A DNA stretch of 64,000 nt, from NCBI GenBank assembly GCA_005116965.1, contig SWDG01000022.1, positions 118,768 to 182,767 on the forward strand, read 5' to 3'. This document shows, one piece after another, positions 2,016 to 63,896 of the stretch; the first letter of the stretch is position 1, and every line of letters starts with the position of its first letter. The translations under genes and the position numbers were made by a program. The notes beneath the pieces were generated by a model. The model was not told where the DNA came from and searched no databases. It saw nothing but the letters and a program-made list of their open reading frames with translations. This stretch comes from Nitrospira sp. (GTDB lineage Bacteria; Nitrospirota; Nitrospiria; Nitrospirales; Nitrospiraceae).

Positions 2016-3374
2016 ATGGGAATTCTGTCGTCGCTTTTTACGGGCGTCAGCGGGTTGAACGCAAACGGAAATGCGTTGTCAGTGGTGGGGAACAATATTG
2101 CGAATCTCAGCACAGTCGGGTTTAAATCCAGCCGCTCTGTGTTTGCCGATTTAATCAGCTCATCGTTGGGAGGCGCGGGTGGCGCGATTCAGACTGGTTT
2201 GGGGGTGGCGCTCAACGGCGTGCAAGGGAACTTCAGCCAAGGGTCGCTCAGTACCACCAGTAACGCGCTGGATTTGGCCATCGACGGTAACGGATTCTTT
2301 GTCCTCAGGGATCCAGCCGGCGCGGCATTCTATTCTCGAGCCGGACAGTTTCATCTGGATGCGCAGAACCGCATCGTCGACCCCAGCGGATTCTTCCTCC
2401 AGGGCTATCAGGTCAATACCAGCGGTCTCATTACCGCCAGCATCGGTGGAGTCACGCTCCCTACCACAACGGCTCCGCCTAACCCGACCAGCACCGTCGA
2501 TATCGGCGCCAATCTCAATTCACAATCAACGACTGGTACTTTCTCGCTCGCAGATCCGGCCGGAACAGCTCAGTTTTCAACATCGCTCACCGCCTATGAT
2601 TCTGTCGGCAACACCCATCTCCTGACCACATATTTTACGAAGACCGCGGCGAATACCTGGACCTATAACGTCCTAGGCAGTTCGAACGAGGTCGTCACCG
2701 GCAATTACCATTCATCGAATGTGAATGCTTCCCTGGGGCTTGTGCGGTTGGCATCCGGTTCTCTGACGTTCACGACATCCGGTGCACTTGATACGGAGAG
2801 CGTGGTGACAAGCTATGATAGCGGCACTGCCGGAGGAACCGCTGGGGGCACGGTTGGGCAATCTCAAATCGATTTTGTCGGCGCGACTGCGGATCAGGCC
2901 GTTGCCTTCAATTTCGGCACAAGTGTGACGACTGATGGAGGGACCGGACTAAACCTCACCACCCAATTCGGCGCGGCTTCAGGGTTGGTTCAGCAAGCCC
3001 AAAATGGGTTTGGTGCCGGAGCGCTCCAGACCTTCAGCGTAGAGACCAACGGGATGGTCAATGGCCGATTCTCCAACGGGCAGGTTCGTCCCTTGGCTCA
3101 GCTGGCGTTGGCACGGTTTCCGGATCCGTTGGGGCTCGTGCGAACCGGAAAGAATACTTTTGCCGAGTCGGGCACGTCTGGGCAACCGTTGGTTGGAGCT
3201 GCCACATCGGCAGGCCTTGGGCGAATCCTGGCCAACACACTTGAGCTGTCCAATGTCGACCTCGGTGAAAGTTTTATCGATATGATCGCAGCGCAACGAG
3301 GGTTCCAGGCGAACTCACGCGTGATCACTACATCCGACGAAATATTACAAGAATTGGTCAATCTGAAACGGTAG
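2016..3374 (+). CDS. flgE: Flagellar hook protein FlgE
   Basis: FlgE is the structural subunit of the hook, the universal joint outside the outer membrane. The 452-residue protein has the rod/hook N-terminal motif NNIANLSTVGFKSSR, a FlgE/F/G-type core (LDLAIDGNGFFVLRDP) and the C-terminal helix SNVDLGESFIDMIAAQRGFQ. The centre is longer and rich in S, T and G, as expected for the surface D2 domain. The start is well supported by AGGAGGG eight bases upstream. A strong hairpin follows the stop, so fliK-flgD-flgE probably ends here as a transcription unit. Confidence 0.96.
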   Translation: MGILSSLFTGVSGLNANGNALSVVGNNIANLSTVGFKSSRSVFADLISSSLGGAGGAIQTGLGVALNGVQGNFSQGSLSTTSNALDLAIDGNGFFVLRDPAGAAFYSRAGQFHLDAQNRIVDPSGFFLQGYQVNTSGLITASIGGVTLPTTTAPPNPTSTVDIGANLNSQSTTGTFSLADPAGTAQFSTSLTAYDSVGNTHLLTTYFTKTAANTWTYNVLGSSNEVVTGNYHSSNVNASLGLVRLASGSLTFTTSGALDTESVVTSYDSGTAGGTAGGTVGQSQIDFVGATADQAVAFNFGTSVTTDGGTGLNLTTQFGAASGLVQQAQNGFGAGALQTFSVETNGMVNGRFSNGQVRPLAQLALARFPDPLGLVRTGKNTFAESGTSGQPLVGAATSAGLGRILANTLELSNVDLGESFIDMIAAQRGFQANSRVITTSDEILQELVNLKR

Positions 3375-3393
3375 ATGTATTCTTTCTTGGTGG

Positions 3394-3420
3394 GGCTGGG
3401 AGTGATCGTCACTCCCGGCC
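3394..3420 (+). terminator. Hairpin after flgE, probable transcript end
   Basis: A 12-bp stem (GGCTGGGAGTGA paired with TCACTCCCGGCC, one G-U pair) has a 3-base TCG loop and lies 20 bases after the flgE stop. No run of T follows, so it may act as an mRNA-stabilising or Rho-associated hairpin rather than a classic intrinsic terminator. A new promoter follows before fliL. The rest of the 305-base gap (3375-3679) shows only a small cttgac/gtcaag inverted repeat and no gene. Confidence 0.6.
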
Positions 3421-3624
3421 AGCCTCTCCTTCACTCCGCCCTCTCATCCGGTGTCGGTCTCTACTCTTGGCCATCGTCCTGCACCCTGTCAGCTTCTTGA
3501 CGGTGTCAAGAGGTTGCTTGACAGCGCGCGTGTGCACTCTGTCATGCGTGGTGTATGTCGTATGGAAGCATGCGCCAGATATGATGATTCGTGATTTCTG
3601 CTATCGGTGAGTCGCAACGTGTAG

Positions 3625-3640
3625 TGGCATATGCATTGCA
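3625..3640 (+). promoter_or_regulatory. Sigma-54 promoter for fliL operon
   Basis: TGGCATATGCATTGCA matches the sigma-54 consensus TGGCACG-N4-TTGCA, with exactly ten bases between the GG (-24) and GC (-12) pairs. The predicted start is near 3651, giving a leader of about 29 bases to the fliL ATG. The second sigma-54 site in this window, before flgF, has the same spacing. Confidence 0.8.
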
Positions 3641-3679
3641 GTCTCCGCACCGGGCCAACGAGTCAATCGAGGAGGAGTT

Positions 3680-4231
3680 ATGGCAGATGCAGCCGCAGTT
3701 GACGAAAAAGCTCCCGCAGCGGCCCCCGCTGCGGCGTTCCCCATCAAACTGCTCATTATTGTCTCAGTGATTGCCTTGGTATTCGGGGTGGGTGGGGCAT
3801 TCGTGGCAGTCAAATTCCTGGGAGGAGCCAGTCAAGGGGGTGAACATTCAGAGGATCATAAAGGTGATGCCGAGGCAAAGGTCGAGTCGAAGAGCGAGGC
3901 TGGTGGAAAACATGGTGAGGCTGCTTCGCCCGGTGTCATGTTCGATTTGGATCCCTTCATTGTCAATCTCGCAGACACCCCGGACGTGCGGTATTTGAAG
4001 TTGACCCTCAAGCTCGATGTAGACGGCGAAGCGGTGTCTACTGAACTGTCCACGCGGATTCCTCAGATACGAGATGCGGTTCTGGTCTTGCTCAGCAGCA
4101 AGGACGTCAATGCGGTCAGAACGACGCAGGGAAAATTCCAGCTGCGTGATGAAATTACTCAGCGCATCAACGGGCTTCTGAAAAAGCCAGGAGTCCGATC
4201 GGTCTATTTCACGGAATTTGTCGTTCAGTAA
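3680..4231 (+). CDS. fliL: Flagellar basal-body protein FliL
   Basis: FliL is a single-pass inner-membrane protein that sits next to the stators and supports torque. The 183-residue protein has a short Ala/Pro-rich cytoplasmic start, one membrane segment at about residues 23-45 (KLLIIVSVIALVFGVGGAFV), a charged His/Lys/Glu-rich linker and a periplasmic FliL domain with FDLDPFIVNLAD and RYLKLTLKLDVD. A GGAGGAG Shine-Dalgarno precedes the ATG closely. It is the first gene behind the sigma-54 promoter at 3625, and fliM begins 11 bases after its stop. Confidence 0.95.
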   Translation: MADAAAVDEKAPAAAPAAAFPIKLLIIVSVIALVFGVGGAFVAVKFLGGASQGGEHSEDHKGDAEAKVESKSEAGGKHGEAASPGVMFDLDPFIVNLADTPDVRYLKLTLKLDVDGEAVSTELSTRIPQIRDAVLVLLSSKDVNAVRTTQGKFQLRDEITQRINGLLKKPGVRSVYFTEFVVQ

Positions 4232-4242
4232 CAGCGGATACT

Positions 4243-5217
4243 ATGGAAAAGATTCTCTCCCAGGACGAAATCGATGCGCTGTTAAAGGGCGTCGTCTCCG
4301 GTGAGGTGGACACGGCTCCGAAGGAGGCTGCCGAAGAGGCACCGAGTATCAAGGGATACGATCTATTCAACCAGGAGCGAATCATCCGTGGGCGAATGCC
4401 GACCATGGAGATGATCAACGACCGATTCATTCGCCGCCAATCAGTTGTCTGGACCGGCATGTTTCGACAGGCCATTGATTTTGCTGTCGTCGGGACGCAG
4501 GTGATCAAATTCGGTGAGTTTTTGAAAAAGGTTCCGATGCCCTCATCGTTGAACGTGTTTCATATGGCGCCATTACGGGGTAGCGCACTCTTCGTGATGG
4601 ACGCGTTCCTTGTGTACCTGATCGTGGACTATTTTTTTGGGGGTAAGGGGCAGACCCACGTGAAGCCTGAGGGGCGAGACTTCACGCCCGTCCAACTGCG
4701 GATCATTAAAAAGTTGTTGCTCCAATCGCTTGTCGATCTGGAAAAGGCGTGGCATGCCGTCGTGCCGATCAAGGTGGAGTATATGCGCTCTGAGAGCAAC
4801 CCTCAGTTCGCGATGGTGGTGACCGCATCTGAAATCGTCATCGTTGTCACGTTACAGGTTATTTTGGGAGAAACGGCCAGGGAGCTCTACATCGTCTATC
4901 CCTACAGTATGCTCGAACCGATCAAAGAGAAGCTCTATTCCGGTCTCGTCTCCGATCAGCTCGATCAAAACGGCGAGTGGGGTCAGCGATTCCAAGAGCG
5001 ATTGCACGAGTGTCCACTTCCGATTGCGGTGCGACTGGGGACCGCTACGGTCACGGTGAAAGACGTGATGAATTTTTCGCCGGGCGACGTGATCTTACTC
5101 GACCAGCATCCAGGAGATCCTCTCGACTGCTATATCGAGGGGCACCACAAATTTCAGGGCAGTCCTGGAATTTACAAGGGCAATCACGCGTGCCGCGTGA
5201 CCAAAGTATTGAACTAG
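4243..5217 (+). CDS. fliM: Flagellar motor switch protein FliM
   Basis: FliM is the C-ring switch protein that binds CheY-P and sets rotation direction. At 324 residues it has the family length. It opens with EKILSQDEIDALLKGV, the extreme N-terminal CheY-binding peptide. The CheC-like middle domain follows (ERIIRGRMPTMEMINDRF), then a C-terminal SpoA domain (VRLGTATVTVKDVMNFSPGD). fliN comes next. It supplies the target for the CheY and CheZ encoded at 57-58 kb in the same window. Confidence 0.97.
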   Translation: MEKILSQDEIDALLKGVVSGEVDTAPKEAAEEAPSIKGYDLFNQERIIRGRMPTMEMINDRFIRRQSVVWTGMFRQAIDFAVVGTQVIKFGEFLKKVPMPSSLNVFHMAPLRGSALFVMDAFLVYLIVDYFFGGKGQTHVKPEGRDFTPVQLRIIKKLLLQSLVDLEKAWHAVVPIKVEYMRSESNPQFAMVVTASEIVIVVTLQVILGETARELYIVYPYSMLEPIKEKLYSGLVSDQLDQNGEWGQRFQERLHECPLPIAVRLGTATVTVKDVMNFSPGDVILLDQHPGDPLDCYIEGHHKFQGSPGIYKGNHACRVTKVLN

Positions 5218-5242
5218 TCGTGACACCATCGAGAGAGTGACT

Positions 5243-5611
5243 ATGGCTGAATCAGACTCCGCAACGCATTTCGATTCCCAGACCACCGGGAGCCCATCCC
5301 CGCAGCCGGCTTCGTTTCCGTCTGTCCAAAGCGCGGAGACGGGCGGAACTCCTAAGAATATCGATTTTATTCTGGATATTCCCATGAGCGTCACCGTGTA
5401 TGTCGGATCCACAAAGATGGCCATTCGGGATCTGTTGCAACTCGCTCAAGGCTCCGTCATTGAGCTGGATAAACTCGCAGGCGAGCCGATGGAAGTGATG
5501 GTGAACAACAAGTTGGTGGCGCGCGGTGAAGTCGTGGTCGTCAACGAGAAATTCGGTATTCGCTTGACGGATGTGGTGAGTGCGGCGGAACGCGTGCAAC
5601 ACCTGCGCTGA
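5243..5611 (+). CDS. fliN: Flagellar motor switch protein FliN
   Basis: FliN forms the base of the C-ring with FliM and helps dock export cargo. Residues 1-35 are a variable Ser/Pro/Gln-rich tail. The C-terminal 75 residues are a SpoA domain (ILDIPMSVTVYVGSTKMAIRD, then LAGEPMEVMVNNKLVARGEV). I prefer the ATG at 5243, which has GAGAG seven bases upstream, over the in-frame GTG two codons earlier, which lies directly against that site. The resulting protein has 122 residues, within the FliN range. Confidence 0.95.
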   Translation: MAESDSATHFDSQTTGSPSPQPASFPSVQSAETGGTPKNIDFILDIPMSVTVYVGSTKMAIRDLLQLAQGSVIELDKLAGEPMEVMVNNKLVARGEVVVVNEKFGIRLTDVVSAAERVQHLR

Positions 5612-5630
5612 ATCATCCGAAGGAGAGGCC

Positions 5631-6038
5631 GTGATTGATCTGTGGGAAAGTCTGTTCCGCACCGTCTCAGCCCTGGCCATCGTGCTGGTGTTGATGGGGG
5701 TTGTCGCAGCGACGGTCCGGCGAGTGATGGGGCAACGATTGGGAATTGCCGGTGGGCGTCCGCTCGTACGAGTCTTGGCAAGTGGCTATATCGCTCCGCG
5801 CAAGACCATTTCCGTCGTGTCGGTTGCGGGAGAGTATTTGATTGTGGGGACGACCGCGACCGATCTTGTTCCGCTCGGACGCATCAGCGATTCAGCCGAA
5901 TTGCGGGAATTACTCTCTCTCACCAGCGAGAACGCCTCCACCGAGGCGGCGCCGGCCTCTCAGGAAAGGTTTGCGTCCTGGCTACGGCGTCTCCCGTTCG
6001 GTGCGTTGCATCATAACAAAGGACTTCATGGCCGATAA
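5631..6038 (+). CDS. fliO: Flagellar export protein FliO
   Basis: FliO is a small membrane protein that helps assemble the FliP pore of the type III export gate. The GTG at 5631 has AAGGAGAG four bases upstream and fits better than any earlier start. The 135-residue product has one membrane segment at about residues 12-34 and a cytoplasmic domain with GRPLVRVLASGYIAPRKTIS and GEYLIVGTTATDLVPLG. FliO diverges strongly in sequence, so position between fliN and fliP is part of the evidence. Its end overlaps the fliP start by 11 bases. Confidence 0.88.
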   Translation: MIDLWESLFRTVSALAIVLVLMGVVAATVRRVMGQRLGIAGGRPLVRVLASGYIAPRKTISVVSVAGEYLIVGTTATDLVPLGRISDSAELRELLSLTSENASTEAAPASQERFASWLRRLPFGALHHNKGLHGR

Positions 6039-59120: not shown

Positions 59121-59184
59121 TCGTTCGTGAAGCGTATCTTGTTCCGAACTCGGGCGCTTCACGTTTCACGTTTCACGCTTCACG
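59121..59184. repeat. Family A palindromic repeat, copy 2, between motA and motB
   Basis: CGTTCGTGAAGCGTATC faces GCGCTTCACGTTTCACG on the other arm. The right side contains two tandem TTTCACG units and a final CGCTTCACG. It starts within five bases of the motA stop and ends just before the motB Shine-Dalgarno region. Confidence 0.8.
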
Positions 59185-60556: not shown

Positions 60557-60982
60557 ATGACAATGACTTCAGGAAACCGCCGCCAAAAAGTCGCAGGTGA
60601 ATCGCTCCCAGTCGAGAACGCGCCGCAGCCAGTACTTCAGGCACATCAACAAGCCTGGGAAACCTTCGGCGTCGATGCGGTACAGGTCATTCCGATTCTC
60701 AAGGCCCAGATGACGGCGGTGACACGGGAAACGGAGCGAGCCGCGATGGAGCTGATGGGGCATCTTCAAGTGTTGGCTTCTGTGAGTGAGACCATCACGG
60801 CCAAAGAGCGAGCGGCCAGTTTGTCAAAGGCGGTGATGGCGATGGGCGGCAGGATCGAGGTCCGGACAGAGCTGAAGACCGGATCGACGTTTTCAGTCGT
60901 CTTGCCGCAGACCACGCCGGTGGACCGCTCAACAGCCCAGCAATACCACATTATCAAGGAGGTCGTGACGCATGACTACTGA
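60557..60982 (+). pseudogene. Fused remnant: helical chemotaxis domain joined to a histidine-kinase tail
   Basis: The 141-residue frame joins two unrelated parts. Residues 25-95 (VIPILKAQMTAVTRETERAA, then SLSKAVMAM) look like the start of a helical chemotaxis-associated protein. Residues 96-118 (GGRIEVRTELKTGSTFSVVLP) look like the last strands of a HATPase domain, with no N, G1 or G2 box before them. The simplest reading is an in-frame deletion that removed the end of one gene and most of a kinase. The stop overlaps the next gene. It may still make a small protein. Confidence 0.6.
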
Positions 60983-61730
60983 GTCTCCGAGGATTTTGCT
61001 TGCCGATGATGAAGATACGTTCCGCAAAGCCACAGCCACGCTCTTGGAGCAGGAGGGGTATCGATGTGATAGCGCACAGGATTTTGAGCAAGCCAGCCGG
61101 TTATTGATGGGTGAGCATGATGTGCTCATCTCCGATATTCGCATGCCGGGCAATATGCAGTTCGAGTTTCTCCGCGATGTCCGAACGCGGTTCCCGTTGC
61201 TTCCGATCGTGTTGGTGACCGGCTATCCTTCCGTTCAAACGGCGGTTGAGGCGCTCCGTCTTGGGTTTACGGATTACTTGCTCAAGCCGGTGGATTGGCC
61301 GGATCTGCGCCGAGCGGTGGCCGACGCGGTCAAGAAGACCAGCCTTGTGCGTATGACGACCTCGGTGCGAGAAGAAGCCAGTCGGCTCGTGGCATCGTTG
61401 GAGCATCTTCAGGAAACCTTGCCTCAGCTGGGCAGTGGAGCCAACGAACGAGAGCTGGCCTGGTCGCTCGATACGTTCCTCGCCCAGAGTTTCTCGTCGA
61501 TGGCGGTCTTGTCTTCCCGGATCCGGTCCGTGCTGACCAGCCAAATGCAAGGCCGTGCCGAGGCACCCACGGATGTGTGCCGCATGATGGCATGCCCACG
61601 ACTCGCTGTGTATCGGGAAGCACTGGAGGGGACGGTAGAGGTATTGGAGAAGACCAAGATCGCCTTCCGGTCCAAGGATCTTGGGCTCTTGCGGGGAAAA
61701 ATCGAGCAGTTGCTCCGCGAAGATGCGTGA
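60972..61730 (+). CDS. Response regulator with unknown helical C-terminal domain
   Basis: A 252-residue protein. Residues 5-120 are a receiver domain with acidic ADDED, phospho-acceptor D55 (ISDIRMPGNMQ), VTGYPS and LLKPVDW. Residues 140-250 are helical (SLEHLQETLPQLGSGANERE) with no recognised DNA-binding or enzymatic domain, so output is unknown. It overlaps the upstream remnant by 11 bases, as if once coupled to a kinase gene. Its TGA stop lies in a TGAAGCG repeat unit; it is possible that the C-terminus was trimmed there. Confidence 0.82.
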   Translation: MTTESPRILLADDEDTFRKATATLLEQEGYRCDSAQDFEQASRLLMGEHDVLISDIRMPGNMQFEFLRDVRTRFPLLPIVLVTGYPSVQTAVEALRLGFTDYLLKPVDWPDLRRAVADAVKKTSLVRMTTSVREEASRLVASLEHLQETLPQLGSGANERELAWSLDTFLAQSFSSMAVLSSRIRSVLTSQMQGRAEAPTDVCRMMACPRLAVYREALEGTVEVLEKTKIAFRSKDLGLLRGKIEQLLREDA

Positions 61731-61799
61731 AGCGTCGCTCGTGAAACGTGAAACGTATCTCGTTTCTGAATTCAGACGCTTCACGTTTCACGCTTCACA
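61727..61799. repeat. Family A palindromic repeat, copy 3
   Basis: The left side reads CGTGAAACGTGAAACGTATC and the right side GACGCTTCACGTTTCACGC, forming a long interrupted stem. It begins on the stop codon of the response regulator (GCGTGAAGCG). Confidence 0.82.
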
Positions 61800-61836
61800 T
61801 TCTCCGTCCCACGTTGTCCGATCGCCCCCCCACCGG

Positions 61837-61863
61837 TCAAGATTTCTTCGCCCATACCGATAG
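61837..61863 (+). promoter_or_regulatory. Sigma-28 promoter before the MCP remnant
   Basis: TCAAG at 61837 and ACCGATAG at 61856 are 19 bases apart, as at fliC. The predicted start near 61870 gives a leader of about 139 bases. Chemoreceptor genes are typical sigma-28 targets, so the site supports the identity of the broken gene that follows. Confidence 0.7.
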
Positions 61864-62008
61864 AGTACCAAGCAATACATAGGACCTTGGTCGGGCGTGA
61901 CGGCCTGATCGCCTGGTGGACAGAAGAGAGATCTGTCAGCTGAAGGCGCATTCAGAAAGCACTCGAAACAGAGTGACTTTTCAGTGTGCTTTTTGCATTG
62001 GAGGCATC

Positions 62009-62435
62009 ATGAACAGATTCAAGAATCTCAGCACCAGGACCAAGTTGATGGTGAATATCGGGCTGTTCGTGCTGATCATGATCATCACGACGGGACTCTC
62101 GATCAAGGAGATGGGTGAGCTGAGCCAACGCATTGAAGTTATTTACAAAACGAACGTGCTCCCGATGGCGATACTCGGCGATCTGCGACACAGCACGCAA
62201 CGGGTGACCGGAGCCGTGGGACTGCATATTCTTGCTCACGACAGCGCCACGGCGGCGAAACGCATCGAGGAGATCGCCAGGCTCGACACGGCGTGAAGCG
62301 TCCGGATCTGGAGACGAGATACGCTTCACGAGGCCCGCTTCACGAACCAGGGTTCACGCGGCTGAGCCGGTCGGTGTCGTGGCAGGGAATGGGAAGGACC
62401 GCCGCGTGGCGGATGATGCGTTCGAAGAGTTCTAG
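62009..62435 (+). pseudogene. Methyl-accepting chemotaxis protein, remnant of both ends
   Basis: From ATG 62009 (GGAGGC upstream) 95 residues read as the start of a chemoreceptor: one membrane helix (LMVNIGLFVLIMIITTGLSI) and the first helix of a four-helix sensor domain, then a stop inside a family A repeat unit at 62294. In another frame, 62355-62435 encodes AAEPVGVVAGNGKDRR and ends DDAFEEF-stop, like the CheR-tethering tail of chemoreceptors. The whole second membrane helix, HAMP and signalling domain are missing. The two ends flank the repeat, so deletion linked to the repeat is likely. Confidence 0.68.
62293..62345. repeat. Family A palindromic repeat, copy 4, inside the MCP remnant
   Basis: CGTGAAGCGT lies opposite ATACGCTTCACG about 25 bases later, and a further GCTTCACGAA unit follows. 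The first unit supplies the TGA that ends the N-terminal MCP fragment. Confidence 0.78.
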
Positions 62436-62579
62436 AAGCGGTGAAGCGTATTGTGTGAAGCGTCCGGCCAGTGGTTTCGTGTTTCAGGTTTCTAGTTTCA
62501 TCTATAAAGCAGTTCGAGGTTTCAAGCATTTGGATAACCTGAAACGTGAAACTTCAAACTTGAAACATCCTATCTAGAA
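62436..62579. repeat. Mixed repeat block after the MCP remnant (copy 5)
   Basis: Two GTGAAGCG units lie at 62440-62465. A separate inverted pair, GTTTCAGGTT (62481-62490) and AACCTGAAAC (62536-62545), follows, within runs of GTTTC/GAAAC words. No coding sequence is seen. Confidence 0.7.
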
Positions 62580-63137
62580 CTACTCGAAGATCTCGGCGAG
62601 CAGCGCCTGAAAGCCAGGTAGGAGCGGGGTGGAGAGGGTGTCGTTTGCTTCTCGCGCAAGTTCTGCGGTCCGGACATATCCCTGGTCGGTCAGCCGATAG
62701 ATTTTGATGCCTTCCAATTCCGGGTCCACGATCCAGTATTCACGCACTCCGTAGCGTTCGTAGAGTTTGCGTTTGACGACCTCGTCGATTTTCCGGGTGC
62801 CGACGGAGAGAATTTCAACGACCAGATCCGGCGGCCCTTGAATGTTCTTCTCCGTGATGATGGCTGCACGGGCGGCGGAGATGAAGAGCAGATCCGGCTC
62901 GACGATATCCTCGTCGGAGAGGACTACATCGTAGGGAGCGGCGAACACCTCGCCCAGGCGATGAGTTGTGAGAAAATCCGCGAAGGCTGCGGACAGCCTG
63001 AAGGAAATCCTTTGATGTTGTGTGTTCGGCGAAGGGGTTATGAAGTGGTCTCCGTCGATGATCTCATGGCGTTTCCCGTCTTCGGGAAAGAGCAGGAAGT
63101 CGTCATAGTTGAACCGCACGCTGCGTGGAAGCGACAT
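62580..63137 (-). CDS. Uma2-family (DUF820) putative endonuclease
   Basis: A 185-residue protein with the Uma2/PD-(D/E)xK fold. It starts near FNYDDFLLFPEDGKRHEIID and has the catalytic-type pattern EPDLLFIS followed by PPDLVVEILS and the conserved RKLYERYGVREYWIVDP. Members are common and often multicopy in bacteria with unknown targets. The ATG at 63137 has GGAGAGAGG upstream on the minus strand; a start five codons earlier lacks this. It is not flagellar. The gene has its own orientation and diverges from the toxin-antitoxin pair. Confidence 0.9.
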   Translation of the reverse strand: MSLPRSVRFNYDDFLLFPEDGKRHEIIDGDHFITPSPNTQHQRISFRLSAAFADFLTTHRLGEVFAAPYDVVLSDEDIVEPDLLFISAARAAIITEKNIQGPPDLVVEILSVGTRKIDEVVKRKLYERYGVREYWIVDPELEGIKIYRLTDQGYVRTAELAREANDTLSTPLLPGFQALLAEIFE

Positions 63138-63232
63138 GAGACCTCTCTCCAAGGGAAGCGCACAACTGGATGCACTCTAGCAACCACCGGCCAGACGATC
63201 AAGTCGATGGACCACACGTCTTTCCCAGCCCC

Positions 63233-63267: not shown

Positions 63268-63513
63268 ATGATAAAGCTAAACATTCATGAGGCGAAAACC
63301 CATCTTTCCAAGTATCTCACCAGACTCAAAGCCGGGGATCGAATCGTACTGTGCAAGCGCAATCAGCCTGTGGCACAGATCACTCCACTATCTGAAGTTC
63401 CGACACGTCCGCGTCCCATCGGTTTGGCCAAACAGACGTTCTCCGTTCCCGCGTCTTTTTTTGAGCCACTTCCCGATGACATGCTCGACACATTCGAGGG
63501 CGGGAAGGCGTGA
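63268..63513 (+). CDS. Phd/YefM-type antitoxin
   Basis: An 81-residue protein with the Phd-type N-terminal DNA-binding fold: IKLNIHEAKTHLSKYLTRLK, then GDRIVLCKRNQPVAQITPL. The disordered C-terminal part would wrap the toxin. It is expected to neutralise the PIN toxin encoded next and repress its own promoter. The stop overlaps the toxin start by four bases (GTGA). It is unrelated to the flagellar genes. Confidence 0.88.
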   Translation: MIKLNIHEAKTHLSKYLTRLKAGDRIVLCKRNQPVAQITPLSEVPTRPRPIGLAKQTFSVPASFFEPLPDDMLDTFEGGKA

Positions 63514-63896
63514 AATGTCTCCTCGATACCTGCACCTTCTTGTGGATTATCGCAGGCTCGCGCGAACTCTCTTCGACCGCAGCGAAGATGTTTACCGATC
63601 CCACCCATGAAATCTACCTCAGTGCAGTGTCGGTGTGGGAGATCTCGGTGAAACATTCGCTGGGAAAGCTTCCGCTGCCGGCTTCCCTCGATCGGTTTCT
63701 ATTGGCGCAGCGGGAGATGCATGGGATATCGATTCTGCCGCTCGAAGAACGGGCGGTGTTTCACTTGCACAAACTTCCCACGCTGCATCGCGACCCGTTC
63801 GATCGGATGTTGGTCTGCCAGGCCATTGAGCACGATTGCGTGCTGCTGACTCCCGATCCGCTCATCGTGCAATATCCTGTCAGAACGCAGTGGTAG
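63510..63896 (+). CDS. PIN-domain (VapC-type) toxin
   Basis: A 128-residue PIN-domain ribonuclease. The acidic residues are in place: LLDTCTFLW (first Asp), SVWEISVKHSLGKL (Glu), HRDPFDRMLVCQAIE (Asp) and LLTPDP near the end (Asp). These PIN proteins cleave RNA when not bound by the antitoxin. The GTG start overlaps the antitoxin stop, a usual arrangement for a coupled pair. About 100 bases remain to the window end with no gene seen. Confidence 0.9.
   Translation: MKCLLDTCTFLWIIAGSRELSSTAAKMFTDPTHEIYLSAVSVWEISVKHSLGKLPLPASLDRFLLAQREMHGISILPLEERAVFHLHKLPTLHRDPFDRMLVCQAIEHDCVLLTPDPLIVQYPVRTQW

Follow-up and report, generated by a model that had tools for sequence, protein, structure and literature searches.

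Upstream signals and the receptor head

A short reading frame in the chemotaxis cluster of a Nitrospira sp. raises the question of whether it encodes a chemoreceptor reduced to its two ends, and, if not, how the two ends came to lie together. The frame comprises 95 codons and runs on the forward strand from an ATG at 62009 to a TGA at 62294–62296 of the window, by which we mean the whole 64,000-nt stretch that was analyzed (assembly GCA_005116965.1, contig SWDG01000022.1, positions 118,768–182,767, forward strand). The scaffold carrying the window is called C4 here, and a separate 5.3 kb contig of the same genome is called C3. MCP1 denotes the receptor encoded between the response regulator gene and cheR, and MCP2 the receptor encoded between cheW and the histidine kinase gene.

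Residues 1–93 of the frame (62009–62287) are 96% identical to the start of MCP1 of Nitrospira sp. CG24B, and homologues were found in the syntenic place in CG24B and at least five further relatives. The frame matches Pfam 4HB_MCP_1 (5.7e-11) over profile positions 1–88 of 181 only; it is half a four-helix-bundle sensor, the start of a membrane chemoreceptor, in agreement with the initial annotation, which had recognized an N-terminal membrane and sensor piece. According to Pfam, the frame ends mid-sensor with no second transmembrane helix, HAMP or signaling domain, and MCPsignal (PF00015) had zero matches in the frame or elsewhere on C4. Both the signaling domain and the complete sensor with two transmembrane helices and HAMP that are expected of a functional receptor are therefore lacking. 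Across the 93 MCP1 codons, dN/dS against CG24B is 0.10.

The expression signals reported earlier are in place. A ribosome-binding site GGAGG (62000–62004), also present in CG24B, precedes the ATG, and a sigma-28-like promoter, TCAAGATTTCTTCGCCCATACCGATAG, lies at 61837–61863 on the forward strand. The score of this promoter is unremarkable by itself, as about 100 other places in the 64-kb window score alike; the support comes from its position, which is kept before MCP1 in the aligned relatives (CG24B, G001, G007, G010, G016, and G060) with the motif YAAGRTTT-N11-CCGATAG ahead of a conserved leader hairpin. The hairpin, GGACAGAAGAGAGATCTGTC (61918–61937, forward strand; GGACAG-N8-CTGTCC-like), is found in most MCP1 leaders as GGRCAGG-loop-CCTGYC at 80–95 nt from the promoter start, including a copy at 5910–5929 of the CG24B locus (L060). 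Its stem shows paired changes on both strands (A-T to G-C), and its purine-rich loop is constant. Rfam gave no family for it, only chance matches far under the gathering scores. It possibly serves as a regulatory leader or a site of protein binding.

The intact receptor of CG24B

The syntenic gene in CG24B (NEWS02000004.1, L060 6001–8763) is intact and encodes an MCP1 of 920 amino acids with 4HB, HAMP, PAS, PAS, HAMP_2, and MCPsignal domains, with CZB and cheR downstream. CG24B has the upstream response regulator, promoter, leader, and first 93 residues in common with the window (91% DNA identity over 60832–62287), whereas its receptor is full length. Homology between the two ends at 62287, after residue 93, and the stretch of MCP1 missing from the window amounts to ~2.4 kb.

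It had been proposed that more than 1 kb of coding sequence was lost between repeat copies. The intact gene should carry a repeat at each of the two breakpoints if such a deletion had taken place; no repeat was found in CG24B at the left breakpoint, and the junction in the window holds a single repeat copy. On this comparison, a deletion between repeat copies of one gene is not shown, and the proposal is contradicted further by the origin of the two ends from different genes, as described below. The comparison with relatives that had been recommended thus yielded an intact receptor and did not bear out the deletion within a single one. Among the other congeneric genomes (79 searched), none carried the truncated join of head, repeat, and tail; heads, tails, and repeats occurred separately only.

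The tail and the palindromic repeat

Downstream of the frame, a receptor tail, AEPVGVVAGNGKDRRVADDAFEEF, lies at 62361–62435 on the forward strand; by context and by comparison with G006 and G069 it is the end of an MCP2. Taken together with its 3' flank, the tail is closest in DNA to the end of MCP2 in G006 (81% over 119 nt), and MCP2 of G069 ends with KEPVGVVAGNGKDRRSSSDNFEEF, followed by a Phd-VapC pair. The C-terminus of the window tail is AFEEF, and the intact receptors of the cluster that were examined have a similar xFxxF, such as EFEEF. Pentapeptides that tether CheR and CheB at the chemoreceptor C-terminus follow the rule xZxxZ, where Z is F, W, or Y (PMC7390727). The window tail fits this rule and is a putative CheR/CheB tether. 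The stretch that had been read as a C-terminal tail ending DDAFEEF is accordingly a genuine receptor tail, and the concern that it might lack similarity to chemoreceptors is dispelled.

Between head and tail, a palindromic repeat element (62293–62346, forward strand) is in frame with the tail and, just as had been noted, carries the TGA (62294–62296) that closes the head frame. The family, GTGAARCGT...ACGYTTCAC, accounts for 44 nine-mers per 92 kb vs 1.6 expected (~27-fold over chance), and the genome contains 16 full palindromes vs 0 for a reversed control pattern; congeners contain up to 39. The family is genus-wide, being abundant in part of Nitrospira and absent in others. Around the locus it occurs at 59127–59184, 61727–61799, 62293–62346, and 62441–62464 of the window and at 195027–195070 of C4, with in-frame copies or derivatives in the linkers of receptors and cheA and close to the start of a response regulator. 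The simplest explanation for the copy between head and tail is that the linker of the other receptor already contained it. Rickettsia palindromic elements and intragenic REPs (PMC3733652) are likewise short dispersed palindromes, some of them in frame in protein linkers. The literature searched held no description of the present family; the Nitrospira genome papers found mention CRISPR repeats and flagella instead.

Gene order, neighbors, and junctions

Gene identities, gene orders, breakpoints, and gaps were read directly from the assemblies. In relatives (G010, G012, and the single-contig G060), the order is CheZ-CheY-cheA-cheW-(MCP2)-kinase-response regulator-MCP1-cheR-cheD-cheB. On C4, a cut CheZ-like gene is followed by the kinase end, response regulator, and MCP1 head, then by the tail, Uma2, Phd, VapC, and kinase, then, after a gap of 100 N, by cheA, cheW, and an MCP2 head, and after another 100 N by a tail, CZB, and cheR. 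If P1 denotes the part up to CheZ, Q the cheA-cheW-MCP2 head, P2 the MCP2 tail to kinase, Z the kinase end-response regulator-MCP1 head, and R the tail-CZB-cheR, relatives have P1-Q-P2-Z-R vs P1-Z-P2-Q-R here.

Upstream of the head, the N-terminal part of the CheZ-like gene (60557–60843, forward strand) is 48% identical to residues 6–106 of a 192-amino-acid CG24B protein, itself a weak match to Pfam CheZ under the cut-off. Next comes the end of a histidine kinase gene, 50 codons in length (60833–60982, forward strand; 96% identical to residues 280–330 of the CG24B kinase fragment). As a consequence of the joining of the two at the first junction, the 141-amino-acid frame at 60557–60982 is an in-frame fusion of the CheZ-like N-terminal part and the kinase end. 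The response regulator (60972–61730, forward strand) is intact and, judging from its syntenic orthologues, is the normal upstream neighbor of MCP1, with identities of 76–81% in G001, G004, G007, G010, G012, and G016 and 96% in CG24B.

The genes after the tail point to MCP2. A Uma2-family gene (62580–63152, reverse strand; Pfam 5.8e-34) has counterparts downstream of MCP2 in G004 and G011, and the Pfam-assigned Phd/YefM antitoxin (63268–63513) and PIN-domain toxin VapC (63510–63896), both on the forward strand, are 95% identical to the pair downstream of MCP2 in G069. A Phd/VapC pair 84–85% identical to that of the window also lies just after the CheA HPt domain in G034 (C102, L077 12024–13811), and no catalytic core of CheA turned up in its vicinity. 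MCP2-type PAS chemoreceptors of Nitrospira (G006, G011, and G069) share the tail of the window and a downstream Uma2 or Phd-VapC; unlike in the window, the tail there closes a complete receptor starting after cheW. On C4 itself, the MCP2 head lies 8–9 kb further on, ahead of a 100-N gap; past this gap, the tail that stands before CZB-cheR, GKSVKALALGNGSERSGTSDEFEEF, resembles the MCP1 tail of G060, GKPVKTLAVANGLERRGTSEEFEEF. Tail types are mixed between receptors in the clade (CG24B and G068), and tail identity is therefore better judged from the genes downstream. Judging from similarity and context together, the feature is an MCP1 head joined to an MCP2 tail, not one shrunken receptor. The initial annotation was thus right about the head, the repeat, and the tail and mistaken in assigning them to a single chemoreceptor.

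The P1/Z junction (J1) is a 12-nt sequence, GGTGATGGCGAT, at 60832–60843 on the forward strand, common to the CheZ-like and kinase sides, where the CG24B alignments overlap. At the Z/P2 junction (J2, 62287–62288), where the CG24B alignment stops, nothing obvious is shared between the MCP1 head and the linker of the other receptor. J1 and J2 contain no Ns, and P2/Q and Q/R are the two 100-N gaps. The P2 kinase ends at 187072 of C4 (GGTG), exactly where 60832 of the window would continue according to CG24B. The genes cut at the four junctions are CheZ, cheA (which lost its HPt domain at a gap), kinase, MCP1, and MCP2, while motA, motB, the response regulator, cheW, cheR, and cheB are full length. 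Since these neighbors are full length and dN/dS against CG24B is low (0.04–0.10 for motB, cheB, and the 93 MCP1 codons), the system does not look long dead.

Origin of the join

The most likely explanation, to which we give a little better than an even chance, is an assembly mis-join among near-identical tandem receptors, and we infer that the blocks were swapped in the computer. The near-identical signaling domains would have dropped out during assembly, leaving contig ends and gaps, and the flanks would then have been paired incorrectly; the cell itself would have a complete, membrane-bound MCP1 expressed from the sigma-28 promoter and no 95-residue peptide. This is consistent with the ancestral order in three relatives, the fit of the kinase stop to the start of Z, the G060-like tail past the second gap, the absence of MCPsignal from C4 though MCP2 must have one, the receptor sequence at both ends of C3, the reciprocal junctions and the loss of the cheA HPt at gaps, the full-length and constrained neighbors, and the breakage or odd joining of two other same-clade assemblies here (CG24B and G068). 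The initial annotation had cautioned that an assembly problem needed excluding, and such a problem is now the favored reading. It has to contend with J1 and J2 being free of Ns and holding no exact repeat >13 nt in the fetched part of the genome, which is under usual assembler overlaps, with the mixing of tail types, and with MCP1 residues 94–560 and the CheA HPt domain, expected to be unique sequence, being absent from the whole assembly rather than misplaced. C3 was considered as the carrier of the missing MCP1 interior and rejected as an orthologue because its signaling domain is only 85% identical to that of CG24B MCP1, vs mostly 91–98% DNA identity for the cluster flanks. The same continuity at J1 and J2, the 12-nt microhomology, and the missing unique sequence argue for the main rival, a real and very recent cellular rearrangement, which we hold to be quite possible if less probable: J1 would have formed by microhomology-mediated joining and J2 by end-joining, placing a moved or copied response regulator-MCP1 head block before the MCP2 tail and making the 95-codon frame a newly formed piece of pseudogene. 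The new and ancestral orders may coexist in the population, which would also explain contigs ending exactly at branch points, and the cluster is variable in relatives (receptor number and Uma2 or Phd-VapC insertions). However, it requires a two-block swap with both reciprocal junctions at scaffold gaps and five genes cut at these junctions only, and none of the other congeneric genomes (79 searched) shows such a join. A tandem duplication of the response regulator-MCP1 block, which was also considered, accounts for the contig end at the kinase and not for the position of cheA-cheW-MCP2.

Loss of the middle of a single receptor through recombination of two repeat copies is very unlikely in our judgment: a repeat does lie at the junction and both ends are receptor-derived, but the orthologue has none at the left break, and the flank of the tail (Uma2 and Phd-VapC) belongs to MCP2, the neighbors downstream of MCP1 being CZB or cheR. 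We give the least credit of all to a retained functional membrane peptide, for instance a decoy or inhibitor pairing with full-length receptors. An intact promoter, leader hairpin, ribosome site, and frame would suit it, as would the low dN/dS; this constraint, however, is accounted for by the full length of the gene in CG24B, and the product would stop mid-sensor in a form met in none of the congeners. The suggestion that the 95-residue fragment might still be made as a membrane peptide thus found nothing positive in favor of a function, and a functional mini-receptor is unlikely under an assembly mis-join and a real rearrangement alike.

Related assemblies and implications

In CG24B (L060 2825–5007), cheA jumps mid-gene (after L060 3921) to the kinase end, and cheW and MCP2 are absent from the fetched region; the cluster may have been mis-joined here too, or the deletion may be real. 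The CG24B cheR contains a gap. In G068 (C9, ~3214–5806, L117), unrelated PEP-CTERM-like protein genes extend up to the palindromic repeat before tail-CZB-cheR, and a 100-N gap interrupts cheR, with another PEP-CTERM-like gene on its far side; the region is possibly a chimera.

A further reading, which we consider very unlikely, is that the swap is real and recurrent, with linker palindromes serving as exchange points that reshuffle the heads and tails of tandem receptors, so that receptors turn over rapidly in Nitrospira populations. It would fit the finding that, in CG24B, G060, G068, and this genome, tail types do not keep to one receptor position, MCP1 or MCP2. If the rearrangement proves true, the cluster would be a good place for studying receptor reshuffling. 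Tandem near-identical chemoreceptors can make an assembled genome appear to hold a minimal receptor that is convincing but probably false, and losses of cheA, CheZ, or receptors in Nitrospira assemblies should not be taken as real without reads.
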